Shown: piece after piece, positions 2,916 to 64,000 of the stretch
Numbering within the stretch: position 1 is the first letter of the stretch
Layout: each line of letters begins with the position of its first letter
NCBI GenBank assembly: GCA_948144175.1
Contig: CANXME010000426.1
Coordinates: forward strand, 36,649-100,648
DNA length: 64,000 nt
Direction of reading: 5' to 3'
Source: Closterium sp. NIES-65
Lineage: Eukaryota; Streptophyta; Zygnematophyceae; Desmidiales; Closteriaceae
Notes under the pieces: model-generated
The model's database searches: none
Told to the model about the DNA's origin: nothing
What the model saw: the letters and a program-made list of their open reading frames with translations, nothing else
Made by a program: the position numbers and the translations under genes

Positions 2916-4547
2916 TACAAACCCCAAGAGCCGAGGTACAGTGATGTGGATCAGTGCCACACTATCCCCAAACAGGAAGGGTCTCGAAACTACCTACCAC
3001 AAGGACCTACACCAACTGAAATGTTACACTACATGAAGTAATGTAACTATTTACGTTATCTTGAGGTGCACCCTTTTGCGGGCTTCGAGATCACTTGGGT
3101 CTTGACACCAAGGCTCGGACTCTTCATCACAAACTCGTCCTTGAGTTCTTGATAGGTCTGCTGCACACACCTGCAACACGCCGAACATTCGACATGTTGG
3201 GTGCAAATTCACATTGCACGACATCCTGCCGTCTGTTTGTACGAGTATGCGTGTGCGAATGCATTTGCGTGTGAATGGTATGTTTGTGTGTTTGTTTGCT
3301 TTCGCAATTTTCGCTTGAAGCATTTGCAGGTACTCGCAAAATGTGCGCTTCGGCATAACATTGTACGCGCTATGAACAGTACAAGCAGAAAGGACGAGCT
3401 CGCAAAGGAACCCAAGATGGAAGCTTTGCGGTTCGGCTTACTTGATTGCGCAGATTCAGTTCTATCCAACTCGAAATTGTACTGTTTTGTTTGGTTGACT
3501 ATAGTGTAGCAGGGCAGGCACTATAGGGGTACAATTTAGGTGAAGGTTGGATGTTGTTTGTCTGTATCTGCATGCTACAGGGCCAGGGGAAACCAGCGGA
3601 ACCAGCATTTGGCTGGTTGGGCAAAGACAAAACAGGTTCTGTTTTTAGGACCTGAACCTGGTTGTTGTTTTCCCAGGTTGGAAAAACAGAACCAGAGGTT
3701 GTTCACCAACCTATCACCTGCTATTTTGTTCAGCCAGGTTGGTTCTGTTGCTTGGAATTATTTGGGATCATCCCTGGTTGTTCCCAGGTTGATTCCCAAG
3801 GTCCTTGCTAGCTAGAGCTATTTATTCCTTCTCTGTTTGTACCTGAATATAGTGAAATTGATTCAAGCGAATTCCTTCCTTGCTGGAATTTCTTTTCTAC
3901 GCGGTGCGATGGCGGAACGCTACCCGAGTCAACGCTAGTACGCTAGCACTCCAACGCTAGGCTAACGCTGTCCGAGCCATAACTTCGTAATGGCAGAACT
4001 TTTCGCGAGGCAACTTGGCTTATTTTAAAGCTCTTAGAGTGAGCTTCGATATAGGAAATTCTCAGCTTAATCCGATCGACGGTCTGCACGATACGCTGCG
4101 CGACGTTCAAGGTACTCTTGCTGTTTTGACTAAGTCCCTCTTGATCCCTCTCTCTACAAACTCGGACCCGAGGATAGGGGCTGGTCTTGTACCAGGCACC
4201 CAAGGACCCTTGGAGGTGACCCCGAGGAGAGGTTTTAAGTGTGATAAAGTCTTAATAGCTTGAGTTTATTAGGCCCTTACACCAACACGACACACGACAA
4301 AATAGAAACCGCGCACGGGACACACGACAAAACAAAAAACGCGCGCGAGACACAAATGACCGCGTAACACGCGACTAGCGATAACTCGCTATTGACTCGA
4401 CACACACACTCAAGATAATGACTCATAATTCAACACTATAATAAGCATGAAATGTCTATTATCTTATGCCCTCATACCATTCCATGCACACACGCATGCA
4501 CGCACACGGGCAACAAGCTGAGTGCAAACCATAGGGTTGCACGAACA
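2916..4547 (-). repeat. Copia-B 3' LTR, interrupted
   Basis: It matches 9008-9542 from the TACAAACCCC end to the GGTTGCAC end. A Copia-A solo LTR plus its duplicated 5 bp (1098 bp) splits it, leaving 534 bp of Copia-B LTR. A third, partial copy of this LTR type is at 12537-12857. Confidence 0.8.
3195..4287 (+). repeat. Solo LTR of Copia-A
   Basis: This 1093-bp block runs from TGTTGGGTGCAAATTC to CCTTACACCAACA. It has the same length as the two Copia-A LTRs at 22137-23229 and 27899-28991, and I see no difference between them by eye. It is flanked by a perfect 5-bp TSD, CGACA (3190-3194 and 4288-4292). No internal sequence remains, as expected after recombination between the two LTRs of a full copy. 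Confidence 0.95.
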
Positions 4548-9007: not shown

Positions 9008-9542
9008 TACAAACCCCAAGAGCCGAGGTACAGTGATGTAGAACAGTGCCACACTGTCCCCAAACAGGAAGGGTCTCGAAACTACCCACCACAAGGGCCT
9101 ACACCAACTGAAATGTTACACTACATAAAGTAATGTAACTATATGCATTATCTTGAGGTGTATCCTTTTGCGGGCTTCGAGATCACTTGAGTCTTGACAC
9201 CAAGGCTCGGGCTCTTCATCACAAACTCGTCCTTGAGTTCTTGATGGGTCAGCTGCACACACCTGCGATACGCTGAACGTTCGACACACGACAAAATAGA
9301 AACCGCGCACGGGACACACGACAAAACAGAAAACGCGCGCGAGACAAAAATGGCCATGTAACACGCGACTAGCGATAACACGCTATTGATTCGACACACA
9401 CACTTGAGATAATGACTCATCATTCAAACACTATAATAAGCATGAAATATATATTATCTCATGCCCTCATACCATTCCATGCACACATGCATGCACGCAC
9501 ACGGACAACAAGCCGAGTGCAAACTGTAGGGTTGCACCAATA
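9008..9542 (-). repeat. Copia-B 5' LTR
   Basis: About 535 bp, matching the split LTR at 2916-4547 with scattered differences. The minus strand begins TATTGGTGCAACCC; the partial copy at 12537 has the expected TGTTGGTGCAACCC. No clean primer site is visible at the inner edge. Confidence 0.75.
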
Positions 9543-10639: not shown

Positions 10640-10837
10640 TGTCAAAGTTATTTTATGTAACTGCTTGTGGTTTAGGTGTAGTGTATTTATCTTGTCTTCT
10701 GTTTGGTGGTGCACCTCTAGTTTCTTGACTATATGTTGTATCTCTTTGCTATTATTCAACCCTTCTTATTTGGCCAAACCCTCTCGACCTTCCTTTCGCT
10801 ATCTCCATGCTTCCTAGGTTCTAGAACTTTTCTGATA
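10640..10837 (+). repeat. 5' LTR of the protein-less element
   Basis: 198 bp, from TGTCAAAGTTATTTTATG to AACTTTTCTGATA. The TGTCA start is shared with family-C LTRs; the end is TA rather than CA. Confidence 0.9.
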
Positions 10838-10914
10838 TGCTATCAGAGCAAACTACGTTCCTGGCCTGTTGCTTCCGCTGCTACTCTGTGTACTGCACGC
10901 CCCGTGGCGTGCCC

Positions 10915-11700
10915 CTCGCGAGACCCTTAGTGGCCCCTCGCGGCCCCCTTCGCGGCCCCGTTGCCGCCCTTCCAGGCCCTTCGCGGCCCCTTCGCGGCCC
11001 CGTCGCCGCCCCTATCGGCCCCGTCGCCGACCTTTCAGGCCCCTCACGGCCCCCTTCGCGGCCCCGTCGCCGCCTTTACCGGCCCGTCGCCGCCCTTCCA
11101 GGCCCCTCGCGGCCCCTTCGCGGCCCCGTCGCCGCCCTTATCGGCCCCGTCGTCGCCTTCAGCGGCCCCGTCGCCGCCTTTTGCGGCCCCGTCGCCACCC
11201 CTACCGGCCCCGTCGCCGACCTTTCAGGCCCCTCACGGCCCCTTCGCGGCCCCGTCGCCGCCTCCAGCGGCCCCGTCGCCGCCCCTACCGGCCCCGTCGC
11301 CGACCTTTCAGGCCCCTCGCGGCCCCTTCGCGACCTTGTCGCCGCCCCTATCGGCCCCGTCGCCGCCCCTATCGGCCCCGCCGCCGCCTCCAGCGGCCCC
11401 GTCGCCCCCCCTATCGGCCCCGCCGCCGCCTCTAGCGGCCCCGTCGCCGCCCCTTGCGGCCCCGTCGCTGCCCCTTTCGGCCCTGCCCCGACCCTGTCGC
11501 GGCCCCGTCCCGGACCTGCCCTAACCCTGGCCCAGCCCCGACCCTGTCGCGGCCCCTCGGCGCGGCCTTGCCCCGACCCTGTCGCGGCCCCGTCCCGGAC
11601 CTGCCCCGACCCCGGCCCTGCCCTGACCTTGTCGCGGCCCTATCGCGGCCCTCCCCCTGCTATGCACCGACCTTGCCTCGACCCTGCCCCGGCCCCGCCC
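10915..11700 (+). repeat. GGCCCCGTCGCCG tandem repeat array
   Basis: Degenerate tandem array of 12-45 bp units built on GGCCCCGTCGCCGCC and CCCTTCGCGGCCCC, C-rich on the element's sense strand. All three forward frames stay open for long stretches because the repeat avoids stop codons, so these frames are not evidence of a gene. Confidence 0.9.
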
Positions 11701-12295
11701 CGGCCATGCTCCGTCGCCTGTCGCGGCGCACCGGGGGCACGTGCACCGCCCCCCCCCTCTTTTTCCCGTCGCCCGTTGCGGCTCCCTGGGGGGCTGCACG
11801 CGGCCCCCTCAGGTCGCCTCGACAGGCGACGGGAGGGGCGACCTGGGGGGGGGGGGCGAGCGTCGCCCCTTCTGCCGCTTGCTTTGGCGCCCTGGGAGGC
11901 CGCTGCTACGGTGGCGGGTGTGGGGGTGGCGGGTGTGTGGTCTCCCCTTCCCCTCCTCCTCCTTTCGTTCCCACTGCTGCAGCTGCCGCAGGGGGGGAGG
12001 GTGTGAGGGTGTGGGGGAGCCAGGGGAGTGGCATTGGGGTGGCGGGTGTGTGGTCTCCCCTTCCCATCCTCCTCCTTTCGCCCCCCTCTGCTGCTCCTGC
12101 AGCAGTGTGGGGGGGAGGGGGAGGGGGAGGGTGAGGGGATGGAGGGGGTGACCAACCAGAGCCTACCATCTGCTCTCTCTCCCTCTCTCTCTCCTCCTCC
12201 TTGCCTGCCCTCTCCCGTTCTGCTGCGCACTCTGCCTGGTGTACCCCTTCAGGGGGCGATAACTACACTTCTTCCCACAAGCAATTATGGGGGCG

Positions 12296-12493
12296 TGTCA
12301 AAGTTATTTTATGTAACTGCTTGTGGTTTAGGTGTAGTGTATTTATCTTGTCTTCTGTTTGGTGGTGCACCTCTAGTTTCTTGACTATATGTTGTATCTC
12401 TTTGCTATTATTCAACCCTTCTTGTTTGGCCAAACTCTCTCGACCTTCCTTTCGCTATCTCCATGCCTCCTAGGTTCTAGAACTTTTCTGATA
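12296..12493 (+). repeat. 3' LTR of the protein-less element
   Basis: 198 bp, with about three substitutions relative to 10640-10837. The TSD ATCTC follows directly. Confidence 0.9.
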
Positions 12494-18111: not shown

Positions 18112-18822
18112 TGTCAGATTTATATGACATAGCTACTGTAGGCTATAGTGGGGTAGTACATATGGGGTACAGCTTTCTAGGGTTTGCACTTGTACCCAAC
18201 TTTCTCTTAGTCATTTTCATTCTCGTTCAGTTTCTCAGGGGCAGGTAAGGTCGTGGACGATCCCCTTGCCGTCCACGAAGTCGGTGATCTTCTTCCCAAG
18301 GAACTCCCCTCCCCGGTTTGAGCGCAGCATCAGCACCAACTTCTTCAGCTGCCTCTCCACCAACACCAGCCACTTCTGGAACTCTAGCAGCACATCCGAC
18401 TTCTTGGCAACCAGCCTCACCGACACGTAGTGGGTCTTGCGGTCCTTTAGCAGCTAGAAGTACAAGCTGCCATCCTTGGCAGCCATGCGGAGCAGCCCTC
18501 ACAGGTCGATGTGCACGACAGCGAGCTCGTCGACAGCGTCAGAGCCTTGGTTGGGGAAGGTGTGCCGCGCCAGCTTCCCGCCGACGCACGACACACACAG
18601 TAAGCCGGCACCCGTTGTCGACTTGAGGTCCAGCCCAGTAGCGACCCCGTGCTTTGCCGAGCTCCGTATGGTGTCCATGCCGACATGCGCAAGTTTTGCA
18701 TGCATCCTGGCTGGCGTCGACTTTGTCTTACAGACGATCGCCCGCAGGGCCACAACCTCCGGCGTGACCGATGTCGACCTCGTTAAGCAGGGACGCAGGT
18801 CGGTGCAGAGGACACGCCCGAC

Positions 18823-22136: not shown

Positions 22137-23229
22137 TGTTGGGTGCAAATTCACATTGCACGACATCCTGCCGTCTGTTTGTACGAGTATGCGTGTGCGA
22201 ATGCATTTGCGTGTGAATGGTATGTTTGTGTGTTTGTTTGCTTTCGCAATTTTCGCTTGAAGCATTTGCAGGTACTCGCAAAATGTGCGCTTCGGCATAA
22301 CATTGTACGCGCTATGAACAGTACAAGCAGAAAGGACGAGCTCGCAAAGGAACCCAAGATGGAAGCTTTGCGGTTCGGCTTACTTGATTGCGCAGATTCA
22401 GTTCTATCCAACTCGAAATTGTACTGTTTTGTTTGGTTGACTATAGTGTAGCAGGGCAGGCACTATAGGGGTACAATTTAGGTGAAGGTTGGATGTTGTT
22501 TGTCTGTATCTGCATGCTACAGGGCCAGGGGAAACCAGCGGAACCAGCATTTGGCTGGTTGGGCAAAGACAAAACAGGTTCTGTTTTTAGGACCTGAACC
22601 TGGTTGTTGTTTTCCCAGGTTGGAAAAACAGAACCAGAGGTTGTTCACCAACCTATCACCTGCTATTTTGTTCAGCCAGGTTGGTTCTGTTGCTTGGAAT
22701 TATTTGGGATCATCCCTGGTTGTTCCCAGGTTGATTCCCAAGGTCCTTGCTAGCTAGAGCTATTTATTCCTTCTCTGTTTGTACCTGAATATAGTGAAAT
22801 TGATTCAAGCGAATTCCTTCCTTGCTGGAATTTCTTTTCTACGCGGTGCGATGGCGGAACGCTACCCGAGTCAACGCTAGTACGCTAGCACTCCAACGCT
22901 AGGCTAACGCTGTCCGAGCCATAACTTCGTAATGGCAGAACTTTTCGCGAGGCAACTTGGCTTATTTTAAAGCTCTTAGAGTGAGCTTCGATATAGGAAA
23001 TTCTCAGCTTAATCCGATCGACGGTCTGCACGATACGCTGCGCGACGTTCAAGGTACTCTTGCTGTTTTGACTAAGTCCCTCTTGATCCCTCTCTCTACA
23101 AACTCGGACCCGAGGATAGGGGCTGGTCTTGTACCAGGCACCCAAGGACCCTTGGAGGTGACCCCGAGGAGAGGTTTTAAGTGTGATAAAGTCTTAATAG
23201 CTTGAGTTTATTAGGCCCTTACACCAACA
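22137..23229 (+). repeat. Copia-A 5' LTR
   Basis: 1093 bp, TGTTGGGTGC to ACACCAACA. Its middle (about 22540-22745) is packed with CCAGGTTG and CCTGGTTG words in both orientations, a possible regulatory cluster. A TATTTATTCC run near 22762 could serve as a TATA element, which is inference. Confidence 0.95.
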
Positions 23230-23232
23230 AGC

Positions 23233-23244
23233 TGGTATCAGAGC
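23233..23244 (+). other. Copia-A primer-binding site
   Basis: TGGTATCAGAGC, three bases inside the 5' LTR. It is complementary to the 3' end of plant initiator tRNA-Met, the usual Copia primer. Confidence 0.9.
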
Positions 23245-23275
23245 TGCGTTATAGTGATCCTCGATATAGGTAGCT

Positions 23276-26200
23276 ATGGCGGGCAACACCTCGGCGGTAG
23301 CTGGTGAATCTTCAGCCCAAGATCGTAGCGGCAGCCATGATTCTGGTGTTTCTGCGCCAAGGGGAGCGCGAACAAGCCAGGGCTCGCTGATCAAGGAGGT
23401 GCTGAAAAACTTCACCGTCGAGAAGTTCAATGGTGAGGGCTATGATGATTGGGCCTGGAAAATGCAACTTTATTTCCGTCAAATCGGATTGCTGAAACTA
23501 ATGATTGGGGAGGAGCCTAGACCGAGTGACCCCGCCCTTCAGGAAGATTGGGACGAGCGCGCCTCGGCTGGCTACTACTTGATGTCGCAGAGTTTGGAGC
23601 TGAACCAGCGTCACCACGTCATGCACCTGCTGCCGGAGGCTGAGTGTGGTCCGAAGGCGTGGACGGTGTTGAAGGAGCTGCACGCCCCGACCTCCGTTGT
23701 TGCAACATTGATGCTGGAGAGGGAGCTGTCCGCGTTGCGCCTGAGCGAGGGAGAGCCGGTGCAACCTGTCCTGGACAAATTGCGCGACCTCTACGCGAAG
23801 TTGGCGACCGCGGGAATCACCTACCCGGAGCAAACAAAGTGCTTGAAGATGCTCTCGCTGCTGCCGGAATCGTGGCTTCAATTTACGAGCGGATTGAGCC
23901 TGCCGCAGAACCAGAGCTTGTGGACGCTCGAGTGGGTGCGGACGAAGATTCTGGAGGAGGACTTCCGTCGCCGCCAACTGAGGGGTGGAGACGACGGCAG
24001 CAGCGGCTACGGGATGCAAGGGAGCCGACGTGGCAAAGGACGTGGCTTCGGTGGTGCTGGACGCGGTGCAAAGAAAGACGACGACTTCAACGACCAACAA
24101 GGAGGTACCGGTTGGGGTCGCGGTGCAAAATCTGGACGTGGGGGCAAGTCGGGTGCTGGTGGCAAAATGAAAGGGAGTTGCTGGTATTGTGAGAAGGAAG
24201 GGCACCCCTGGTTTTTGTGCTATAAGAAACCCGATGGATGGACCCCCCAGAATCGTCACCAGGATGGCGGCGCGCGGAGGAACCAGAAAAACGGTGCCAA
24301 CATGATCGCTGATTCGTCCGACAACAACCCAAAGGGCAACGGCGGTGCGGAGAAGAAGAAGGAGCGCACCGCGGGCCAATTCTTCCATATGGGAGACAAG
24401 GGGGAGCAAGGAGACGCCTCTGCTAAGGCTGGAGCAGAGCTGCACCCCCTGGACTATTGGGTGTTGGACACAGGCGCTGCTTGGACAATGACGCCGCGCA
24501 AGGACCTGCTGGACGACGTACGCGCTGCACCGATTAATGAGGTGTGCTCTGCCTCTGGACACATGTTGAAGGTGGCTGGTGCGGGACGAGCTGCATTTAA
24601 GGGAGCGGATGGCAAGCCGGTGGTGCTGCACGACGTTCTCCTCGTCCCCGACCTGAAGGCCAACCTCATCTCCCTCCGTAAGCTTGGCAAGGCTGGGGTG
24701 AACACCAACACGGATGGGGCTCGCACTTATAAGGGGAAGCTGGGCAATCGGGTGCTTTGGGATCTGCACGAGAGCAAGGACGTGTACAGATCCATGTGGC
24801 AGCTGCCGGCGCTGGCGTGGCATGGTGAGGGGCAGGCTAGAGAGGGGTCTGCATCCCAGGGGGAGTGCAACGCCGTTGGAGGGGTTGGTGTGAAAGTGTC
24901 GGCCAGATCTGGGGAGACAGATTGGGCAACTGCACACCGACGTTTGGGGCATGTGGCAATGCCTTTGCTGAAGCAGCTCGAGAAGGATGGAGCCGTTAAG
25001 GGCTTAAAGCTGAACGGACAACCACCCGATGATAACTGTGAAATTTGCCTCCTTTCAAAGTTCACTCGTTTCCCCTTCCATAGTGTGGCTGGCAGGAGCA
25101 AAAAGCCGTTGGAGCTGGTCCACATGGACTTGGTGGGGCCGCTGCCGGTGCAAGGGCACAAGGGGGAGCGGTACTTCCTAACCATAGTGGATGACTGGAG
25201 CAGGCTAATGTGGGCGTATCCGCTGAAGCAGAAAGATCACGCCGCCTCCACGATTCGGGACGATTGGCTGCCGTTCGTGGAGAAGCAAGCGGAGTGTGTG
25301 GTGAAGCGGATTAGGACAGATCGGGGTGGTGAGTTCCTTGGAACTGACATGACGGCCTGGCTCAAGAAGCAGGGCATCCAGAGGGAGCTGACCACGGCTT
25401 ACACCCCACAGTCCAACGGTGTAGCAGAACGGGCGAACCGGACAATTCTGGAGGCAGCTAGGGCGCTGCTCATAGAATCTGGGCTGGGCAACTTGATGTG
25501 GCCCCATGCTGTTCGGCACGCTACCGTCGCTAGGAACAGGGTACTCACAAAGGTTGGGGATGACTCGTGGGTGCCGTTGGAGAGGTGGCTTGGGAGGAAG
25601 CCGCCGGTGGACATGCTGAGGGTGTTCGGTTGCATGGCAGTCGCCCACGTCCCCAAGACCTACCGCAGTAAGTTGGGGGCGAGTGCAATCTGGTGTGTGC
25701 ATTTGGGGCTGGCTGCTGAGAGCAAGGGATGGCTGCTGTGGGAACCCTCCAAGGGTGTGTTATTTGACAGCAGGGATGTGAAGTTTGTTGAGGGCATGAT
25801 GTATGGGAGCTGGGAGAAACAGCCGGAGGCCAGGGTGTCCCAGCAGATGGAGCAGATTACCATGCAGCTGGACCTGACTCCTAGTGTGTGGGAGGAGGGA
25901 GAGGAGGCAGCTGCAGAGGGTGGTGATAAAGAGAAGGTGCAGGAGGCACCTGCTGGTGGAGGTGATGGTGTGGAGATTAGCGGTAGCACTAGTGGAGCTG
26001 CTGGATCTGAGGGAGGAGAGCAGCAGCAGGGGAAAACTAAGAAGCCGAAGGGTGTTATTATGAAGGGATGGGAGACACCCGTCTCCAGGCCAGGACGTAC
26101 CCGTATGGCTACTAAGAAGCTGACTGCAGGAGCTGATGTAGCGGAGCAGCAGCTTGGGACCGAGGAGGCATTGCTGATTCTACCGCATGGCTATGACCCG

Positions 26201-27856
26201 GATGAGGAGGATCAACCTGCGTACTGTTTTCTTGCCCCTGCACCAGAGGAACCAGCTAGCATGGAGGAGGCATTAGCTGGACCAGATAGGGACAAATGGC
26301 TAGCTTCCAGGGATGCTGAATACCAGAGCCTGCTGGAGAATGGGACTTGGGAACTAGTGGTGCTGCCTGAGGGAAAGAAAGCGGTACAATGCAAGTGGGT
26401 GCTAAGGATCAAGACTGACGACAAGGGGCAGGTCACCATCTACAAGAGTAGGTTGGTGGCTAAGGGGTTTATGCAGAAGGAGAAGCGGGACTTCAATGAG
26501 ATCTTTGCTCCCACTGCCAAACCCCCTACCCTTCGTGTCTTGTTGGCAGATGCAGCCGTTAGTGGGAAGTTCATTATCCAGATGGACATATCAACGGCAT
26601 TTCTCAACGGGATTTTAGAGGAGGAGGTGTTCATGACGCAGCCACCTGGGTATGAGGATGGTACGGGCAGGGTGTGCAAGCTGAAAAAGTCCATCTACGG
26701 CTTGAAGCAGGCGCCACGCTGCTGGTACCAGAAGTTGGCAGCTGTTTTAGAGGAGATGGGATTCAGGACCAGCAGCTGTGATGAGAGCCTCTTTCTCAAG
26801 GGGGAGGGGGAGAAGCTGGTGCTGTTTCTGGTCTATGTGGACGACATTCTTCTCTTTAGCAGCAGCATGAAGGAGGTCCAGAAGGTGCAGCAGCAGCTGA
26901 TGGAGAACTTCAAGTGCAAGAACCTTGGGGAGGTAAAGTACTACCTCGGGATGCACGTGGAGAGGGATCTGGATCACAGGTGGTTGAAGCTGCACCAGGA
27001 GAAGTTCATCAAGGAGCTTGGGGAGAAGTATGGAATTGAGAATGAGCGCAAGGTTGCAACTCCCCTGCCAGCAGAATTCAAGCTTGTGAAAGCTGCAGAG
27101 GATGAAGGAGTTGAAGCCGAGGAGCAGCAGCAATTTCAGTCCTTGGTGGGCAGCCTCTTGTATGCAGCAGTTCACACGAGACCCGACATCTCTTTCTCGG
27201 TTGGGCAGCTGGCTAGGGTAGTGCAGAATCCATCAGAGGAGCAGGTGGATGCAGCTGAGCGTGTGGTGAAGTATCTGAACTCTCACCCAAGCATTGGAGT
27301 TCAATACTCCGCATCTGCACAGGTGAAGCAGAAAGGGGTTGAGGTGCTGAAAGAGAAGGGGGAGAGGCTTGGAGAAGGCAAGCTTTTTCTCACTTGCTTT
27401 ACAGATGCTACGTGGGCCTCTGAGAAGGAGGATTCCTCATCTGTGGGAGGATACATCTGCGTAGTTGGGGGAGGACCGGTTAGTTGGAGGTCAAAGAAGC
27501 AGACGGAGACAGCACTCTCTTCCGTGGAGTCAGAGTACATGGCGATGTTCCATGGGGTGAAGGAGGTGATTTGGCTGAGGAGGCTGTTGGAGGAGATTGG
27601 CCAGGAGCAAAAGGTTGCTACGCCGCTGTTTTGTGATAGCAAGGGAGCTCTTGGGATGGCCAGGAACGCTGTGCTTCATGGGCTGAATAAGCACATGCGT
27701 ATCAAGTGGCACTGGCTGCGTAAGGAGGTGAAGAGGGGGACGGTGAATCCGATCTACATCAAGACTCACCAGCAGCCAGCAGACTTCCTCACCAAGAGGC
27801 TTGCGGATGAGTCTCATTGGCGTTGTGTGCGCATGAGTGGAATGAGCATGAACTAG
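23276..27856 (+). CDS. Copia-A gag-pol polyprotein
   Basis: One frame of 1526 residues encodes the whole Copia polyprotein, a usual length for the family. Gag spans about 1-380 (VEKFNGEGYDDWAWKMQ near 43; zinc knuckle CWYCEKEGHPWFLC near 302). Protease has LDTGAAWTMTPR near 395. GAG-pre-integrase has HRRLGHVAMPLL near 551. Integrase carries HMDLVGPLP near 615, RTDRGGEFL near 681 and NGVAERANR near 715, the DDE positions. A charged, Gly-rich linker spans about 860-970. Reverse transcriptase begins near 1020 and has LVYVDDILLF near 1185. RNase H has FTDATWASEKED near 1375, SSVESEYMAM near 1415 and the C-terminal QPADFLTKRL. The start is the first ATG after the primer site. No frame change separates gag from pol, as is common in plant Copia elements. 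Confidence 0.97.
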   Translation: MAGNTSAVAGESSAQDRSGSHDSGVSAPRGARTSQGSLIKEVLKNFTVEKFNGEGYDDWAWKMQLYFRQIGLLKLMIGEEPRPSDPALQEDWDERASAGYYLMSQSLELNQRHHVMHLLPEAECGPKAWTVLKELHAPTSVVATLMLERELSALRLSEGEPVQPVLDKLRDLYAKLATAGITYPEQTKCLKMLSLLPESWLQFTSGLSLPQNQSLWTLEWVRTKILEEDFRRRQLRGGDDGSSGYGMQGSRRGKGRGFGGAGRGAKKDDDFNDQQGGTGWGRGAKSGRGGKSGAGGKMKGSCWYCEKEGHPWFLCYKKPDGWTPQNRHQDGGARRNQKNGANMIADSSDNNPKGNGGAEKKKERTAGQFFHMGDKGEQGDASAKAGAELHPLDYWVLDTGAAWTMTPRKDLLDDVRAAPINEVCSASGHMLKVAGAGRAAFKGADGKPVVLHDVLLVPDLKANLISLRKLGKAGVNTNTDGARTYKGKLGNRVLWDLHESKDVYRSMWQLPALAWHGEGQAREGSASQGECNAVGGVGVKVSARSGETDWATAHRRLGHVAMPLLKQLEKDGAVKGLKLNGQPPDDNCEICLLSKFTRFPFHSVAGRSKKPLELVHMDLVGPLPVQGHKGERYFLTIVDDWSRLMWAYPLKQKDHAASTIRDDWLPFVEKQAECVVKRIRTDRGGEFLGTDMTAWLKKQGIQRELTTAYTPQSNGVAERANRTILEAARALLIESGLGNLMWPHAVRHATVARNRVLTKVGDDSWVPLERWLGRKPPVDMLRVFGCMAVAHVPKTYRSKLGASAIWCVHLGLAAESKGWLLWEPSKGVLFDSRDVKFVEGMMYGSWEKQPEARVSQQMEQITMQLDLTPSVWEEGEEAAAEGGDKEKVQEAPAGGGDGVEISGSTSGAAGSEGGEQQQGKTKKPKGVIMKGWETPVSRPGRTRMATKKLTAGADVAEQQLGTEEALLILPHGYDPDEEDQPAYCFLAPAPEEPASMEEALAGPDRDKWLASRDAEYQSLLENGTWELVVLPEGKKAVQCKWVLRIKTDDKGQVTIYKSRLVAKGFMQKEKRDFNEIFAPTAKPPTLRVLLADAAVSGKFIIQMDISTAFLNGILEEEVFMTQPPGYEDGTGRVCKLKKSIYGLKQAPRCWYQKLAAVLEEMGFRTSSCDESLFLKGEGEKLVLFLVYVDDILLFSSSMKEVQKVQQQLMENFKCKNLGEVKYYLGMHVERDLDHRWLKLHQEKFIKELGEKYGIENERKVATPLPAEFKLVKAAEDEGVEAEEQQQFQSLVGSLLYAAVHTRPDISFSVGQLARVVQNPSEEQVDAAERVVKYLNSHPSIGVQYSASAQVKQKGVEVLKEKGERLGEGKLFLTCFTDATWASEKEDSSSVGGYICVVGGGPVSWRSKKQTETALSSVESEYMAMFHGVKEVIWLRRLLEEIGQEQKVATPLFCDSKGALGMARNAVLHGLNKHMRIKWHWLRKEVKRGTVNPIYIKTHQQPADFLTKRLADESHWRCVRMSGMSMN

Positions 27857-27898
27857 TATGGAATGATGGGGATGCAGCCGGCAGGCTGAGGGGGAGTG

Positions 27899-28991
27899 TG
27901 TTGGGTGCAAATTCACATTGCACGACATCCTGCCGTCTGTTTGTACGAGTATGCGTGTGCGAATGCATTTGCGTGTGAATGGTATGTTTGTGTGTTTGTT
28001 TGCTTTCGCAATTTTCGCTTGAAGCATTTGCAGGTACTCGCAAAATGTGCGCTTCGGCATAACATTGTACGCGCTATGAACAGTACAAGCAGAAAGGACG
28101 AGCTCGCAAAGGAACCCAAGATGGAAGCTTTGCGGTTCGGCTTACTTGATTGCGCAGATTCAGTTCTATCCAACTCGAAATTGTACTGTTTTGTTTGGTT
28201 GACTATAGTGTAGCAGGGCAGGCACTATAGGGGTACAATTTAGGTGAAGGTTGGATGTTGTTTGTCTGTATCTGCATGCTACAGGGCCAGGGGAAACCAG
28301 CGGAACCAGCATTTGGCTGGTTGGGCAAAGACAAAACAGGTTCTGTTTTTAGGACCTGAACCTGGTTGTTGTTTTCCCAGGTTGGAAAAACAGAACCAGA
28401 GGTTGTTCACCAACCTATCACCTGCTATTTTGTTCAGCCAGGTTGGTTCTGTTGCTTGGAATTATTTGGGATCATCCCTGGTTGTTCCCAGGTTGATTCC
28501 CAAGGTCCTTGCTAGCTAGAGCTATTTATTCCTTCTCTGTTTGTACCTGAATATAGTGAAATTGATTCAAGCGAATTCCTTCCTTGCTGGAATTTCTTTT
28601 CTACGCGGTGCGATGGCGGAACGCTACCCGAGTCAACGCTAGTACGCTAGCACTCCAACGCTAGGCTAACGCTGTCCGAGCCATAACTTCGTAATGGCAG
28701 AACTTTTCGCGAGGCAACTTGGCTTATTTTAAAGCTCTTAGAGTGAGCTTCGATATAGGAAATTCTCAGCTTAATCCGATCGACGGTCTGCACGATACGC
28801 TGCGCGACGTTCAAGGTACTCTTGCTGTTTTGACTAAGTCCCTCTTGATCCCTCTCTCTACAAACTCGGACCCGAGGATAGGGGCTGGTCTTGTACCAGG
28901 CACCCAAGGACCCTTGGAGGTGACCCCGAGGAGAGGTTTTAAGTGTGATAAAGTCTTAATAGCTTGAGTTTATTAGGCCCTTACACCAACA
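27899..28991 (+). repeat. Copia-A 3' LTR
   Basis: 1093 bp, same as 22137-23229 as far as I can see. It directly follows the polypurine tract and is followed by TSD ACTAC. Confidence 0.95.
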
Positions 28992-43044: not shown

Positions 43045-43166
43045 TGTCAGAACTATGCTGTAGGCTGTAGTGGGGCACTCCTTATGGGGCAGAGCCCAAT
43101 TAGTTTTTCATATACAAACCCCGTACTACTGTGTTTCTAGTCATTCTTGGTTCCTAGATTCTGACA
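43045..43166 (+). repeat. C1 3' LTR
   Basis: 122 bp from TGTCAGAACTATGCTG to TAGATTCTGACA, with perfect 6-bp terminal inversion TGTCAG/CTGACA. It is preceded by a degraded polypurine tract and the family-C 3' noncoding block. The closest relative is the LTR at 43375-43498. Confidence 0.75.
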
Positions 43167-43374: not shown

Positions 43375-45779
43375 TGTTACAAAGTAAGGAATGAGAATGA
43401 CTAGAATGAGAACAGTAGAATGTTTGTATAGGCAAAACCTAACAGGGCTCTACCCCATAAGGAGTGCCCCACTTACAGCCTACAATATAGTTCTGACACA
43501 CCCTCGTAGGCAAAGTGGGGGACAAACAAGAGAACAAATCAAGGTCAAGCTCAAGGTGGATCACAACGTCACCACGCATTCTGAGCACAAGCAAAAGGCC
43601 ACAAGGCCAGTTCACATGCAGAGTTATATATCAAGGTGAAAAAGCAGTACAGTGATCTCAACCTCACAAGTGTAAGCATGCAGGTGCAGGAATATATAGA
43701 TCACAGTACAAGCAAAGTCACGAGGTAAGCAAGTGATGCCAGGTAGGCACAAGACCTAGCATAATACAAAAACGCGGATGATCACAAGGCTGAAGTGCCT
43801 TGGTAAAGATATCAGCAGTGTTGGCCCGAGTGGCCACGTAAGCAAGACAAAGCTAACCACGCTGCTGCAACTCTCGAGAAAGGAAGTAGCGTAGAGCAAT
43901 GTGCTTCGTTCTGTGCTCTAGTCTGTGCTCCTGGACACAAAGCAATCATGGCCTTGTTGTCGACGTACAGAACTGGAGGAGAACGAGGCGCCTCTCCCAA
44001 GTCGGTCAGCAGGTAGGTGAGCCAGCGTAACTCCTGTGCAGCCATGGTCCCTGCGTAGATCTCAGCCTCACAACTGGAGCTGAGAACAAAAGATGAGCGG
44101 GTAGACCGCCATGAAACAGAGCCGGAACAAAGGCTGAAAGTGTAACCCTGTGACAATCCCTGCATAGCCAAGTCGTCAACCCAAGAAGCATCTGCATGAC
44201 CAGTGAGGACAACTCGAGCCCGTCCTCCAAGCACGAGCCCCATGCCCGACGTACTGCACAAGTAGCGCAACACCCTCTTAGCTGCATCCATGTGCTCTGG
44301 TAGGTGTCTCCCAGGAGCAACATAGCGTGCTAGGATGCTAAGAGGGTAAGCAAGGTCAGGTCGAGTGCAGGTCATCAGGTACATGAGGCAACCCACAAGC
44401 TCTGGGAACGGGCCACTCGGCTCTACGGACTCATCCGAAGGCAGAGCTGAGAGCGAGTCGCGAGTAGACAAAGGAGTGGACTGTGGCGAGGAGTTCGTGA
44501 AGCTGAAGCTCCGAAGGACCTGCTGCACCATGTGTGACTGAGTCAAGGTAATGGTGCACCGTGCTCTGTCCCGGGTGATCTGCAAGCCAATATAGCTGCG
44601 CAGCTCACCCAAGTCTATGAACGTGTGTCTCTTCTACAGCTCCAAGTATACTTGGGCCAGTCCAGCAGTGCCAGCAGTAGCAAAGACCAAATTGTTGACG
44701 TACACGAGGATGCAGAATGGCGGCAGAGTAGTGTCGGTGCGAAGAAACAGCGACGGGTCAGCAGTGGAAGGAGCAAACCCAAGAGCCGCAAGCGTAGTCC
44801 TCATTGTGTCGTGCCACTCATGAGGAGCCTGGCGGAGACCGTAGACTGGCCACCGGAGGCTCCACTGGGTGCCAGGAGGAAACGACCAAGAGAAGCCAGG
44901 TGGGCGGCGCAGCCAGATCTCCTTGTGCAGGCTGCCCTGTAGGAAAGCTGTGCTGAAGTCAAGAGAGTGAAGCTCGTAGTCACGTTGAGCGAAAACGTGC
45001 AACAGCACCAGAAGAGTGGTCATCTTTGGGGTAGGGGAGAAGGTCTGAACGTAGTCAACTCCTTGTCGATGACTGAAACCTCGAGCAACATAACACACCT
45101 TGAAGACAGGCGGAGAACTCGTAGGCCGCTTCACCCTGAAAATCCACATGCCATCGATTATGTTCGCCCCGGGTGGGGGAACCTCGTCAACATAAGTGCC
45201 TGTGGACTTCTAGGAAGCCATCTCTACGCCCATGGTTGTCTGCCACTGAGAAGAGTAGGGACCCTCTATCGCCTCTACGTAAGAGCGCGGGGTCGGGATG
45301 TCTGGTGCGTCCGGGTCTCCCTCAGGGGCAATCATCATGGACACGAGATGAGGTAAAGCAGCGGCAAAACACTGGAACTCCTCCTGCCTGTCCTCAAGGA
45401 CGTCCGTGCTAACAGCACACTCACCCCCGACGGACGGAGGACAGACAGACTCGGACTCAGCAACAAGACCAGCGGCGTAGTCTAGACGACAGTGAGTAGC
45501 AAAGTCGACAAGCTGAGCAACAAGTAGACAGTGGTTGCGAACGGCTAGGCGAGCAGCATCGTTACGGGTAAGCCACTGTGACCGAGTCGCACTGTCAGCT
45601 GTGGCGTTAGGGGTGGGCGAGGTGCCAGAAGTGAGGTGAAATAGCGAAGTACCGTCCTTAGAGTCTGTCAGCAGGAACAGCTGTAAGTCGTCTAGCCACG
45701 CATTGAACTCTATCGGGCGGCCCTCCGAATCGAAGGTGAGAATGTTGAGAGTGGCCATAGCGGGCAGAGCAGTCGGGCG

Positions 45780-46400: not shown

Positions 46401-46471
46401 CGACGGTTGGGGTAGCGCTACTCGGTGGGCCCTAAGAAATTGGTTCTAGGCTAGGACCTGCTCTGAAACCA

Positions 46472-54272: not shown

Positions 54273-54706
54273 TGTTACGAATAGAAATGAATGAAGGTTA
54301 CAGTGCACTCCCAACCGTAGCTAAAGAAGCACGCAGTATCGAGAACGAATGTGAAGAGTCAGAGTTGACTCGAAACAGCAGACGATTTGGACGCATCTGG
54401 ACCGTCGGAAGTAGACGGCATCGGCAGCTGCAGGCAGAAGGGTTCTGGCAGGAACAGTTTTCGTAACTGTATGCGCCGCACAGTTGGGAATGAATTTGAA
54501 TAAGGGAATGTACCCCTTAGATTACATGGATAGCTAGGTCGATTCATCTTCCCTGTACTCAAATTTATATCCTTGTACTTGCATGTTTTTTTTATCTCAA
54601 GCATTTTACATTCACTCTGCTATTGAGGTCAAGGGCCCACCACCACTCAGTAGTGTGCGAACCTTCTTGAGGTGATCCCGAGAATGGTCAACTTCTGATC
54701 ACAACA
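54273..54706 (+). repeat. Copia-E 5' LTR
   Basis: 434 bp from TGTTACGAATAGAAATG to TTCTGATCACAACA, TG...CA with TGTT/AACA inversion, followed directly by the primer site. 62412-62729 matches its last three quarters. Confidence 0.8.
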
Positions 54707-54769
54707 TGGTATGAGAGCGACTCAGGAATCTTTCGCACTGCCACTCCCGAAAATTACGACATTCGGAAA

Positions 54770-55820
54770 GTGGCGTCCGGCACACGCTCGCGTGTAAGAA
54801 TGGCTGGAGGATCTGGCGGTCAGACGAACCTGACGGCTGAAGCGCAACCCAACCCGGCTGCGACAAGCGAGGGAACGACGACAATCGGAAGCGAATTCCT
54901 CGTACAACTGCTTCAGCGACTCACCAGCTTGGAGCAAGGGCTCCAAACATTGCGGAACGGTGACGCGGGAACATCCTCGCAACCTTCTCAACCTGCCCCA
55001 ACCGGCCAGAATGCCGCCCCGCACACATTCTCCCTCGACACAAATGGTTCAACTCCCAAGACTCCCCGTCCCAATGAAGAGGCAATTCTCTCTGCGCAAT
55101 CAAGGTTTCTCAGCATATCAAAAGTAAAGACAAGTACCTGCTTTGACGGCAGAGATTTCTATACCTGGAGCTTCGAACTGGAACTCCTGCTGCAGAACGC
55201 CCAAATCTTCCATTACTTCGACGGGAGTTACACAGAGCCTGCTGAGGACACCGACGACGCCAAGGCAAGATACTATAACGAATCCCTGATGGCGTACGGG
55301 GTGCTCCTGCAGAACATGTCGCCGGCGGAGCAATTGAGCTTTCGCTCATACAAGACATCAGCCGCTCCAGCCCTTGACGCTTGGCGCCATCTCAACGGCA
55401 TGTATCAGCCGAAGGACTCTGTCTCTTCGAGCCGGCTGCTCTAGCAGCTACTGGAAACCAAAATGGCCTTAGGGGAGAAGGCCAACAGCTACATCAATCG
55501 CTGTCGGAGCTTACGCGATCAAATCGCAAAACTTGGGAGCACGATCTCTGAGGAAATCTTCATAAATATCGTGCTTCAAGGGCTCGGCCCAGAGTGGCAG
55601 CCCTACAAGGCGCTTCTCCGATAACAGGGGGTCATCTCGGAGGCCGCCCTTTGCGCCGCCCTTCTCGTCGAACAAGGGGATATGGATCAGCAGCGACCAG
55701 CGCCACGACAAGAACGAGAACGGCTCGCCTTCTACGCCGACAACAACGAAGAGCGAAGGCCGCGGCGCCTCTACTGCAAAAATTGCAGAATTTTCTGGGC
55801 ACCTAGCGGATCGATATAAA
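54770..55820 (+). pseudogene. Copia-E gag
   Basis: Gag of a Copia type with a Ser/Pro/Gln-rich N-terminus and the capsid-like core KTSTCFDGRDFYTWSFELEL (near 55130), then FHYFDGSYTEPAEDTDDAKA and YGVLLQNMSPAEQLSFRSY. The later segment contains NIVLQGLGPEWQPYKALLR. The likely initiator is the ATG at 54800 (MAGGSGGQTN) or that at 54770. The gag at 62824-63840 is nearly the same sequence. It is broken. Confidence 0.8.
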
Positions 55821-55886
55821 TTCCGATCTCGCCCTTGCCAGACCAATCCGAGCTACTGGTCCGGCCGACAAGACTCACGAGGCGAC

Positions 55887-57089
55887 GTGCATCCAGCCCA
55901 GAGGTATCAACCCCCACCCGCGCGCAACCTGAACCCAGCGGTTCAGCATCAGCAGCAGCAGCCGTCATCGACTGCCCCAGTACGCAATGTCATGAGCAAC
56001 ATGGCCATGACAGGCGAGTCGCGTCGTCGCCGTGTGCGCTCACTCTCACCTGAGCCAGCACCGCACCCCATTGGCGCGTTCACCAACAACAACCCGTTCA
56101 GTCCGCGCCGCGACTTCACCGACGACGACGACGACCAGGACTGGAATCTTCCAGTCCCGCTGCTTGAATGTCCCCCGCACGTACTTGATATGCAGGTGGC
56201 GCCACTCGACTGGCTCTCACGCGAGCAATTTCTTAAGTTCGACACTCCGCACATCGTCACGCCGCGACTGGCACTGCTCGCACGTGACGACAACAAGCGT
56301 TACAACACCTGGTACCTGGAGAGCTGCTGCGGCCAGCATATGGTGGGCTCCGACCGTTACATATCCAACGCCGTCGCCACACCCACAGTCACCTACGTCA
56401 CCGTGGCCAACAACACCCACCTGCGCGCAAGCGTGCAAGGCATCGTCGTGCTCAAGGCACGCGGAAGCCGCACGCACATCACGCTCAACGATGTGTTGAT
56501 CGTCCAGAACCTACGCTTCAGCTTGCTTTCCGCCGCACAACTCATGGACTGCGGCGTCAACCTCAGCACGGACCGTGAGACACGCGACATCCTGCTGCAC
56601 TACGAATCACGACACTTCCCCCGCAGGCAGATCGGAAGAGCGCACTCCGAAAATGGAGTGTATGTCCTAGACTTCAACATTCCCGACTGCAGCGGCGACT
56701 CGCACGAGTTAATCGACCTCGTGCCACTGCGCTTCAAGCATATCCACCGCAGGGACTGGAAGCACCCTGACGGCAGGCCGTGGGTACAGCATCATCCTCA
56801 CCCACGCGAAGCGGCGTTGCATGACCCTGACCCAGACGGAATCTGCCGGGATTGCCACACGCCGACGGCGTCGACTAGCGCCATTGCCGGCCGCGGACTC
56901 GCCGGCATCGCCGAAGTAGAGCGCCACGCACCACCAAAAGAAGGAATGTCGCAACTCGAACTTGAGGTCACCACGCACGGCGTGTTCGGCACGCTAGAAC
57001 ACCCTCTCATTGGACCCCCCTCCCAACACCTGCAAGGAATTCTGCGCGGTACTGGTGTTGGATTCTTTGATGCGCATGGTGAGCCATGA
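55887..57089 (+). pseudogene. Copia-E protease region and unusual spacer
   Basis: Frame of 400 residues: Gln/Pro-rich start, acidic run FTDDDDDQDWNLPVPLLE near 78, then a Copia retropepsin-like domain (NTWYLESCCGQHMVG near 135, followed by NDVLIVQNLRFSLLSAAQLM near 195). The rest (about 250-400), with HRRDWKHPDGRPWVQHHPH and CRDCHTPTAS, resembles nothing I recognise in Copia and separates protease from GAG-pre-integrase by far more than usual. A mini-element lies at its end. It is broken. Confidence 0.65.
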
Positions 57090-57092
57090 CCC

Positions 57093-57232
57093 TGTCAGTA
57101 GATCTGCACTGTGGATGCCCGATTGATCCTGGAGAGGGTTACAGGCGCGTTCACCTGGGGGGTTATGGGCGCACTGACCCGCTACTGAAACAAGCCCTTT
57201 TATCCCAGTGGTTAGTGGCTGGGATTCTGACA
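57093..57232 (+). repeat. Mini-element LTR 1
   Basis: 140 bp. One difference from LTR 3 (57561-57700). Confidence 0.9.
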
Positions 57233-57275
57233 TGGTATCAGAGTGGTCTCGGGTTCGATTCCCGGTGAATGCACA
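57201..57275 (+). promoter_or_regulatory. tRNA-like fold with Pol III A- and B-box-like motifs
   Basis: Three successive hairpins. D-arm-like: ATCCCAG (57202-57208) with CTGGGAT (57219-57225), loop TGGTTAGTGG. Anticodon-arm-like: TCTGA (57226-57230) with TCAGA (57238-57242) and a 7-base loop, inside which the LTR/primer-site boundary falls. T-arm: TCGGG/CCCGG around TTCGATT (57249-57265). B box GGTTCGATTCC is at 57252-57262; A-box-like TATCCCAGTGGTTAGTGG is at 57201-57218. The flanking acceptor stem does not pair, so this is not a working tRNA gene. Confidence 0.75.
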
Positions 57276-57325
57276 TGTAGGCCGGTGCCGCTGTGCTTTG
57301 TCCTGGGCCTCCCAGTGTGGGGGGG

Positions 57326-57467
57326 TGTCAGTAGAGCTACACTATGAGATCCCCGATCGATCCTAGGGGGGGTTACAGGCGCGTTCGCCTGGGGGGTTAT
57401 GGGCGCACTGACCCGCTACTGAAACAAGCCCTTTTATCCCAATGGTCTAGTGTTTGGGATTCTGACA
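57326..57467 (+). repeat. Mini-element LTR 2 (middle)
   Basis: 142 bp, visibly more diverged than LTR 1 and LTR 3 are from each other, mostly in its first 50 bp and in the D-arm-like hairpin. Confidence 0.9.
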
Positions 57468-57501
57468 TGGTATCAGAACGGTCTCGGGTTCGAATCCCGG
57501 T
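57435..57501 (+). promoter_or_regulatory. Second tRNA-like fold
   Basis: Same three hairpins as 57201-57265. The first stem is ATCCCAA (57436-57442) with TTGGGAT (57454-57460): the last pair is A-T where the other copy has G-C. The B box is GGTTCGAATCC at 57487-57497, an exact consensus match. Confidence 0.75.
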
Positions 57502-57560
57502 GTATGCACATGTAGGCCGTTGCCGCTGTGCTTAGTCCTGGGCCTCCGAGTGTGGGGGGG

Positions 57561-57700
57561 TGTCAGTAGATCTGCACTGTGGATGCCCGATTGATCCTGG
57601 AGAGGGTTACAGGCGCGTTCGCCTGGGGGGTTATGGGCGCACTGACCCGCTACTGAAACAAGCCCTTTTATCCCAGTGGTTAGTGGCTGGGATTCTGACA
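57561..57700 (+). repeat. Mini-element LTR 3
   Basis: 140 bp, followed directly by TSD GACCC and not by a primer site. Confidence 0.9.
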
Positions 57701-58439
57701 GACCCTACACCCACAAGAAATTTCTGGAAATCTACTCCCATCGACGCGACTCGTCGAAGAAACTTACCGTGGAGCAGGAAGAATAACTGGCGCGGCGCGA
57801 AGGTGAGGAGCTTCGCCAGCAAAGCCTCGCCGAAGCACACAGGACATTCGCTTGCGGCGCATGGGGAGCCGAAGCGGAAGAAAGCGCCTCCAACGAAGGA
57901 GGGTGGGGAAGCGCTGGTGGATGGGGAACGAGTGATACCGGCGGTTGGGGAACCGGCGGCGGAACCTGGGCCGACGCAAGCGGGGGATGGGACGCCGCAA
58001 CTGGCGCCGACAACAGCGGCTGGGGAACTTTCCGCGAAGAACAAAAGGGGGGAGAGGATGCAGCAGAGGAAACTGAGTTAACACCTGCAGTTGTTCCCCT
58101 TGGTCGTCCCCCGCGCCACGCTCCACTCGCATTACCTCCTCCTGAAAACCCACCGCAACGGGACCCCTGGGACACCATCGACTGGGGCAACGAACCGTCA
58201 ACCCCGCGTTGCACTGTTTACGGACCCGCTCCCGAACCGCGCAAACCCACCTTTGTCCCCGGAACCATCCCTGGGACCAATATTCGACTCTCTGAGATTC
58301 TTGACAGAGAGTTTTCTAGCGCTAATGCTGACTACCGCCAATGACGAAGATGAAGCGGCAAAAGAAGCATCAGTAGCACCTGCCCCTGTACCTGATGAGG
58401 ATCCCGAAGAAGCTTGCGCACGCTACATGCGCACTTCCG

Positions 58440-62411: not shown

Positions 62412-64000
62412 TGACATCTGGACCGTCGGAAGTAGATGGCATCGGCAGCTGCAGGCAGGAGGGTTTCTGGCAGGAATAGTTTTCGTAACTGTATGCGCCC
62501 GCACGGTTGGGAATGAATTTGAATAAGGGAATGTACCCCTTAGAGTACATGGATAGCTAGGTCGATTCATCTTCCCTGTACTCAAATTTATATCCTTGTA
62601 CTTGCATGTTTTTTTTATCTCAAGCATTTTACATTCACTCTGCTATTGAGGTCAAGGGCCCACCACCACTCAGTAGTGTGCGAACCTTCTTGAGGTGATC
62701 CCGAGAATGGTCAACTTCTGATCACAACATGGTATGAGAGCGACTCAGGAATCTTTCGCACTGCCACTCCCGAAAATTACGACATTCGGAAAGTGGCGTC
62801 CGGCACACGCTCGCGTGTAAGAATGGCTGGAGGATCTGGCGGTCAGACGAACCTGACGGCTGAAGCGCAACCCAACCCGGCTGCGACAAGCGAGGGAACA
62901 ACGACGATCGGATGCGAATTCCTCGTATAACTGCTTCAGCGACTCACCAGCTTGGAGCAAGGGCTCCAAACATTGCGGAACGGTGACGCGGGAACATCCT
63001 CGCAACCTTCTCAACCAGCCCCAACCGGCCAGAATGCCGCCCCGCACACATTCTCCCTCGACACAAATGGTTCAACTCCCAAGACTCCCCGTCCCAATGA
63101 AGAGGCAATTCTCTCTGCGCAATCAAGGTTTCTTAGCATATCAAAAGTAAAGACAAGTACCTGCTTTGACGGCAGAGATTTCTATACCTGGAGCTTCGAA
63201 CTGGAAATCCTGCTGCAGAACGCCCAAATCTTCCATTACTTCGACGGGAGTTACACAGAGCCTGCTGAGGACACCGATGACGCCAAGGCAAGATACTATA
63301 ACGAATCCCTGATGGCGTACGGGGTGCTCTTACGGAACATGTCGCCGGCGGAGCAATTGAGCTTTCGCTCATACAAGACATCAGCCGCTCCAGCCCTTGA
63401 CGCTTTGGCGCCATCTCAACGGCGTGTATCAGCCGAAGGACTCTGTCTCTTCGAGCCGGCTGCTCCAGCAGCTACTGGGAAACCAAAATGGCCTCAAGGG
63501 AGGAAGGCCAACAAGCTACATCAATCGTTGTCGGAGCTTACGCGATCAAATCGCAAAACTTGGGAGCACGATCTCTGAGGGAAATTTTTGTAAATATCGT
63601 GCTTCAAGGGCTCGGCCCAGAGTGGCAGCCCTACAAGGCGCTTCTCCGACAACAGTGGGGTTCATCTCGGAGGCCCGCCCTTTGCGCCGCCCTTCTCGTC
63701 AAACAAGTGGATATGGATCAGCAGCGACCAGCGCCACGACAAGAACGAGAACGGCTCGCCTTCTACGCCGACAACAACGAAGAGCGAAGGCCGCGGCGCC
63801 TCTACTTCAAAAATTGCAGAATTTTCTGGGCACCTAGCGGATCGATGTAAATTCCGATCTCACCCTTGCCAGACAATCCGAGCTACTGGTCCGGCCGACA
63901 AGACTCACGAGGCGACGTGCATCCAGCCCAGAGGTATCAAACCCCACCCGCGCGCAACATGCACCTAGCGGTTCAGCATCAGCAGCAGCAGCCGTCATCG
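62412..64000 (+). mobile_element. Copia-E, second copy, runs off the window
   Basis: 62412-62729 matches the last 318 bp of the Copia-E LTR (54390-54706), then primer site TGGTATGAGAGC (62730 on) and gag to beyond 63850, nearly identical to 54707-55960. Start of the LTR is not present: it meets C5 RNase H sequence. It is broken in a few places. Right end lies beyond the window. Confidence 0.85.

Follow-up and report, generated by a model that had tools for sequence, protein, structure and literature searches.

A three-LTR mini element of Closterium in which a putative tRNA-derived Pol III promoter spans the LTR edge

Introduction

TRIMs with a tRNA-derived sequence in the LTR have been in print since February 2024 under the name Helenus, with families in fungi, animals and one plant, and are grouped with Cassandra and Ajax as TRIMp3 (Kojima 2024, PMC10886601). 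As far as the available text of that paper goes, the Selaginella family has an LTR of 120 bp, an internal region of 85 bp and a 5-bp TSD, the anticodon loop of initiator tRNA-Met is the dominant primer type of the fungal families, and Helenus is likewise presented without transcription data. The first, sequence-only reading of the locus studied here knew of no tRNA-type counterpart of Cassandra; Helenus is one (PMC10886601). A TRIM with a tRNA-type promoter is thus already known, and the split described below is the difference.

The mini element that we analyse lies in a 64-kb stretch of DNA from Closterium sp. NIES-65 (64,000 nucleotides, hereafter the window). Helenus resembles it in the TRIM format, a Pol III-type promoter derived from a tRNA, a PBS, a PPT and, in fungi and plants, a 5-bp TSD; fungal Helenus families are also tied to Copia, and initiator tRNA-Met is among the Helenus primers. 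In Helenus (PMC10886601), however, boxes A and B both lie in the LTR, whereas here the A-box half lies in the LTR and the B-box half in the internal segment. Among the titles, abstracts and few papers that the literature search covered, we found no element with an A box in the LTR and a B box in the internal region, although Repbase may hold Helenus families split in this way.

Cassandra shares with the mini element the TRIM format, a Pol III promoter, a PBS (given as TGGTATCAGAGC in its search pattern) and arrays of about three LTRs, but its promoter is that of 5S rRNA and lies inside each LTR; its transcripts appear to read through inner LTRs (PMC7215508, in the portion accessible to us). 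Its R is 18 bp as cited in PMC10886601, against about 10 nt predicted for the mini element. SMART / FRetro129 is comparable in being very small, with an internal region of 122 bp, a 5-bp TSD and a Copia partner of similar PBS and PPT; it differs in that the partner has the internal region in common with it, and its description never mentions tRNA by that word (PMC3281118). In Ty3 of yeast, initiator tRNA-Met serves as primer and makes a second contact in U3, for which an 11-nt anticodon-arm complement in the LTR would be the counterpart here; the Ty3 contact uses the T-psi-C arm, whereas the candidate contact of the mini element would use the anticodon arm (PMC5371799, available sections).

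Three LTRs and two internal segments in one insertion

The mini element occupies positions 57093-57700 (608 bp) on the plus strand and is built as LTR-internal-LTR-internal-LTR, with lengths of 140, 93, 142, 93 and 140 bp. LTR1 (57093-57232, TGTCAG...CTGACA) is followed by internal segment 1 (57233-57325), the diverged middle LTR2 (57326-57467), internal segment 2 (57468-57560) and LTR3 (57561-57700). A perfect 5-bp TSD, GACCC (57088-57092 and 57701-57705), encloses all of these parts as one insertion. The sequence-only reading had described a mini LTR unit with only 93 bp between its LTRs. The element itself stands, both internal segments are indeed 93 bp long, and the TGTCAG/CTGACA ends, primer site, G-rich tract and TSD are all present, but the three LTRs and two internal segments within one TSD had not been spelled out.

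Two LTRs and one internal segment, the single unit, measure about 373 bp. As in other TRIMs, LTRs surround a short internal region, the length is below 1000 bp, no mobility protein is encoded, a PBS follows the 5' LTR and a PPT precedes the 3' LTR; GACCC on both sides also has the 5-bp TSD length of Helenus in fungi and plants. The primer binding site TGGTATCAGA adjoins LTR1 (57233-57242) and recurs next to LTR2 (57468-57477), and we take it to match the 3' end of initiator tRNA-Met. G-rich tracts lie 5' of LTR2 (57315-57325) and of LTR3 (57550-57560), with GTGTGGGGGGG directly 5' of either LTR. All three LTRs carry GGGTTATGGGC (57160-57170, 57394-57404 and 57628-57638), an exact 11-nt complement of the anticodon arm of initiator tRNA-Met. 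This match was found post hoc; an equally long one occurred in 5 of 1000 dinucleotide shuffles and in 10 of 995 window segments, which may include ordinary primer sites.

LTR1 and LTR3 differ at one of 140 positions, while LTR2 differs from LTR1 in 14 of 142 columns and from LTR3 in 13; the two internal segments differ at 7 of 93 positions. A block of 54 columns is unchanged between LTR1 and LTR2, and a run as long arose in 246 of 20000 random placements, although the block was singled out post hoc. Reverse transcription evens out the outer LTRs and copies inner sequence unchanged. Since the outer LTRs are nearly identical and the middle one has diverged, the simplest reading would be that the three-LTR unit transposed as a dimer, which we regard as probable.

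No second copy of the mini element exists within the 64-kb window. The element sits where an ORF that encodes a Copia Pol_BBD domain has its stop codon. Its empty site retains one frame, with in-frame stops close to and past the join, and carries no weight either way. The element lies between two direct repeats of some 1.6 kb that are 97% identical (54394-55970 and 62415-64000, the second clipped by the window end).

Promoter boxes on either side of the LTR edge

The B-box consensus GGTTCGANTCC occurs twice in 64 kb when both strands are searched, against 0.10 expected, and both occurrences (57252 and 57487) are in the mini element. Each lies in a T-arm-like hairpin, the first at 57249-57265 with the B box GGTTCGATTCC at 57252-57262 and the second at 57484-57500 with GGTTCGAATCC at 57487-57497, and the two boxes differ solely at the free position. 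Upstream, a D-arm-like hairpin TCCCAG/CTGGGA (57203-57224) contains the A-box-like motif TGGTTAGTGG starting at 57209, and its second copy TCCCAA/TTGGGA (57437-57459) contains TGGTCTAGTG starting at 57443. The A-box-like motif and the B box start 43 bp apart at junction 1 and 44 bp apart at junction 2, close to the spacing in tRNA genes. An A-box-like motif with a consensus B box had been noted at this locus before; the B box holds at both junctions, while the A box, judged by its consensus, is imperfect in both copies, one base being missing in copy 1 and in LTR3 and T replacing the consensus G in copy 2.

The end of LTR3 at the TSD fixes where the LTR stops. At both junctions the B box lies outside the LTR, and it is missing after LTR3, which carries the A-box-like half with no B box past its end; the LTR alone thus holds only the A-box half, and boxes A and B are not found together inside an LTR as they are in Helenus.

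A candidate Pol III start motif, CAA (57191-57193, plus strand), lies immediately 5' of the start of the Rfam match described below and 10-12 nt 5' of the TCCC at 57203. A CAA located no more than about 10 nt upstream works as a start motif in plant tRNA genes (PMC11700998, available text). Each unit has one T run of at least four, a TTTT just 5' of the A-box-like motif (57198-57201 in LTR1, 57432-57435 in LTR2 and 57666-57669 in LTR3), where 0.85 would be expected by composition. A TTTT might serve as a Pol III stop if its LTR is the 3' one, for which one T4 run per unit is weak evidence. Transcription of the mini element by Pol III is what we infer from these motifs.

tRNA likeness and predicted folding of the junctions

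A cmscan of 57150-57560 against Rfam, with E up to 10 and E-values spanning 4227 families, returned seven rows, of which two were the tRNA family RF00005, one per junction and each covering model positions 1-71. Junction 1 (57194-57273) scored 19.1 bits with E 0.2 and junction 2 (57428-57508) 17.1 bits with E 0.73, against a gathering score of 29. The top row, a minus-strand match to a plastid family, is in our reading an echo of the T arm; it scored 22.8 bits where the gathering score is 65.7. No RF00005 row came from two flanking stretches (together 8,001 bases, seven rows, E up to 10), a control near its limit, as 17 bits would correspond to E of about 7 there by length scaling. In the window as a whole, ARAGORN reported no tRNA and the Rfam scan no match at gathering score, 5S rRNA included; the 5S rRNA sequence that characterises Cassandra was also absent from the rows at E up to 10 in 57150-57560, which covers LTR2, both internal segments and the end of LTR1.

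Compared with a panel of 23 tRNAs, the junctions scored up to 157 and 169, whereas the best of 299 window segments reached 98. The two sides of the edge contribute separately: the best tRNA scores of the LTR-side halves were equalled by none of 396 and none of 394 window segments, and those of the internal-side halves by none of 392 and none of 394. Human Glu and plant Gly gave the best panel scores, and yeast Glu and Gly scored far lower. Glu or Gly would be the best candidate source of the junction sequence.

Three hairpins had been claimed across each junction. At junction 1 the D-arm-, anticodon-arm- and T-arm-like hairpins were drawn in both cuts of the sequence; at junction 2 they appeared in the tight cut but not in the wider one, and the predicted 243-nt transcript kept the first two without forming the T-arm-like one. 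Against shuffles, the folding energies of the junction folds had z values of -1.63, 0.16, -0.44, 0.54 and -0.87 and the predicted transcript one of 0.42; for the best of these six, 12 of 200 shuffles were equally good. The first hairpin stays paired through the double change from TCCCAG/CTGGGA to TCCCAA/TTGGGA, a single event. The junctions lack an acceptor stem and hence form no cloverleaf. Since neither the junctions nor the predicted transcript fold more stably than shuffles, it is similarity in sequence and the spacing of the boxes that carry the case.

The middle hairpin, TCTGA/TCAGA at 57226-57242 and its second copy at 57461-57477 including the primer site 57468-57477, is formed by the LTR end and the primer site, as had been proposed. 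When nine junctions of the window were folded, an unbroken stem of at least five pairs spanning the edge was found in four, namely the two of the mini element, 46471(-) and 10838(+); junctions 42077 and 47240 had broken stems of six and seven pairs. At 46471(-) and 10838(+), where the LTRs end in TTCTGACA and TTCTGATA, the middle-type hairpin forms without a B box, so its presence gives no evidence of tRNA mimicry. With ordinary folding energies, no acceptor stem and a middle hairpin that also occurs elsewhere, the description of the junction as folding like a tRNA was overstated. Separately, a tRNA-Thr gene (anticodon ggt) on a viral contig, L059:3276-3347, has in its anticodon arm the retrotransposon primer-site string TGGTATCAGAG, 9 nt 5' of a B box as in the mini element; the string is thus at least compatible with a tRNA arm.

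A proposed promoter divided between LTR and internal segment

We consider it likely, on one locus with two junctions, that the mini element is a TRIM, probably moved by Copia-type elements within its own genome, with a tRNA-derived promoter, presumably used by Pol III, that is split by the LTR edge. The A-box half would close each LTR and the B-box half would follow in the internal segment right after the primer site, and a whole promoter would exist only where an LTR is followed by an internal segment. Pol III would start near the CAA at 57191-57193 and proceed through the end of the 5' LTR, the primer site and the internal segment to stop at the TTTT of the next LTR. The predicted RNA would be about 240-245 nt long and carry a terminal repeat (R) of about 10 nt. 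Its copying would be primed at TGGTATCAGA by initiator tRNA-Met and completed by a reverse transcriptase and an integrase that act in trans. A dimer transcript would have to read through the TTTT of the middle LTR, which counts against this explanation.

The imperfect A box in both copies and a structure no better than shuffles would fit an ordinary TRIM transcribed by Pol II, one that once captured a tRNA or SINE and whose tRNA-derived pieces are now passive relics with no promoter role. We think this unlikely while granting it some weight: the B-box core and the 43-44 bp spacing have been kept despite 14 of 142 differences in the LTR and 7 of 93 in the internal segment, and the sole change in the B box falls at a free position. 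Alternatively, the element could be a Helenus in the strict sense, the tRNA-like unit belonging to the LTR and the split being a local oddity of this copy, such as a shifted LTR edge. Helenus TRIMs do have a Pol III-type promoter derived from a tRNA and, in fungi and plants, a 5-bp TSD, and their Selaginella family is of similar size; they were defined, though, by LTRs that hold the tRNA sequence and conserve boxes A and B (PMC10886601, available text). Against that definition, no B box is present up to the TSD at which LTR3 ends, and the split is common to two diverged junctions, which makes this account very improbable. A SINE or tRNA-pseudogene array that looks like an LTR element by chance is scarcely credible, for although it would explain the tRNA similarity and the tandem 234-bp period, the inverted TG...CA ends, the exact 5-bp TSD around LTR-internal-LTR-internal-LTR, the primer site and G tract, the missing A-rich tail and the last 10 nt common to an LTR-like stretch beside Copia-like sequence all speak against it.

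If the promoter of the mini element is completed only across the LTR/internal edge, Pol III starts would be limited to replication-capable copies, and promoter spacing, primer site and integrase end would come under one joint constraint. With the promoter in the LTR, as in Cassandra and Helenus, 3' and solo LTRs would carry it too. Helenus is named for tRNA sequence in the LTRs, and split promoters may have been dropped as partial matches; a search of LTR/internal junctions with a tRNA model would allow such promoters to be tested across genomes. A more ambitious version, which we judge quite doubtful, would give the junction three duties. It would act as a Pol III promoter only at a joint between LTR and internal segment, which would leave solo and 3' LTRs silent by design. 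In the RNA, the middle arm would combine the integrase-recognised end with the primer site at the place of a tRNA anticodon arm, and a second initiator tRNA-Met contact in U3, at GGGTTATGGGC, would bridge the RNA ends as in Ty3.

Copia elements of the window and searches for further copies

Further copies were sought in collections of viruses, plasmids and prokaryotes, where absence says little about a eukaryote. Of the stretches that matched the 16-mer CTGACATGGTATCAGA, 11 came from viral_contigs and 45 from genome_contigs; none of the 56 had GGTTCRA within 40 bases downstream, as would be expected of chance hits, and they were rejected as copies. Longer mini-element patterns gave no match in viral_contigs. 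A loose pattern from primer site to B box gave ten stretches there, one of them in the tRNA-Thr gene of L059, and these were also rejected, none having CTGACA in the preceding 8 bases. By blastn, 57093-57700 had no match in phages or plasmids, and a search of viral_contigs with a Copia protein yielded no relative.

Within the window, a G-rich tract precedes a TGTCAG LTR start at 18112(+), 43045(+), 29774(-) and 43498(-), an arrangement also seen in the mini element. The LTR-like stretch 43045-43166, for which no mate LTR was identified, is located past a segment that resembles the 3' part of a Copia pol region and ends (43157-43166) in GATTCTGACA, the last 10 nt of the mini element. At 46471(-), ATTCTGACA adjoins TGGTTTCAGAGC, and about 1 kb inward the stretch 43435-45524 is 85% identical to one with an RVT_2 ORF; RVT_2 was found in three of the five ORFs searched with Pfam. 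Two other LTR pairs have 5-bp TSDs, ATCTC for 10640/12296 and ACTAC for 22137/27899. The latter, a Copia element, carries TGGTATCAGAGC at 23233 and differs from the mini element in its TGTTGG ends and the 3-nt spacer before the primer site. Copia termini, PBS and TSD length are therefore matched piecewise on different elements of the window, with no single element shown to combine all three.

Other elements of the window were recorded along the way. At 10640-12493, an LTR pair 98.5% identical with the TSD ATCTC surrounds 1.46 kb, of which GC-rich tandem repeat makes up about half, and the LTR end TTCTGATA pairs with the primer site TGCTATCAGAGC in an 8-pair hairpin. The Copia element at 22137-28991 looks very recent; its two 1093-bp LTRs are 100% identical, its TSD is ACTAC and its 1526-aa ORF encodes gag, integrase and RVT_2 domains. 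Its LTR occurs a third time, again identical, at 3195-4287. The flanks of this copy match 9008-9286 and 9282-9540 at 92-93% identity, and these two stretches have 5 bases (CGACA) in common; 3195-4287 is a solo LTR and 9008-9540 is its paralogous empty site.
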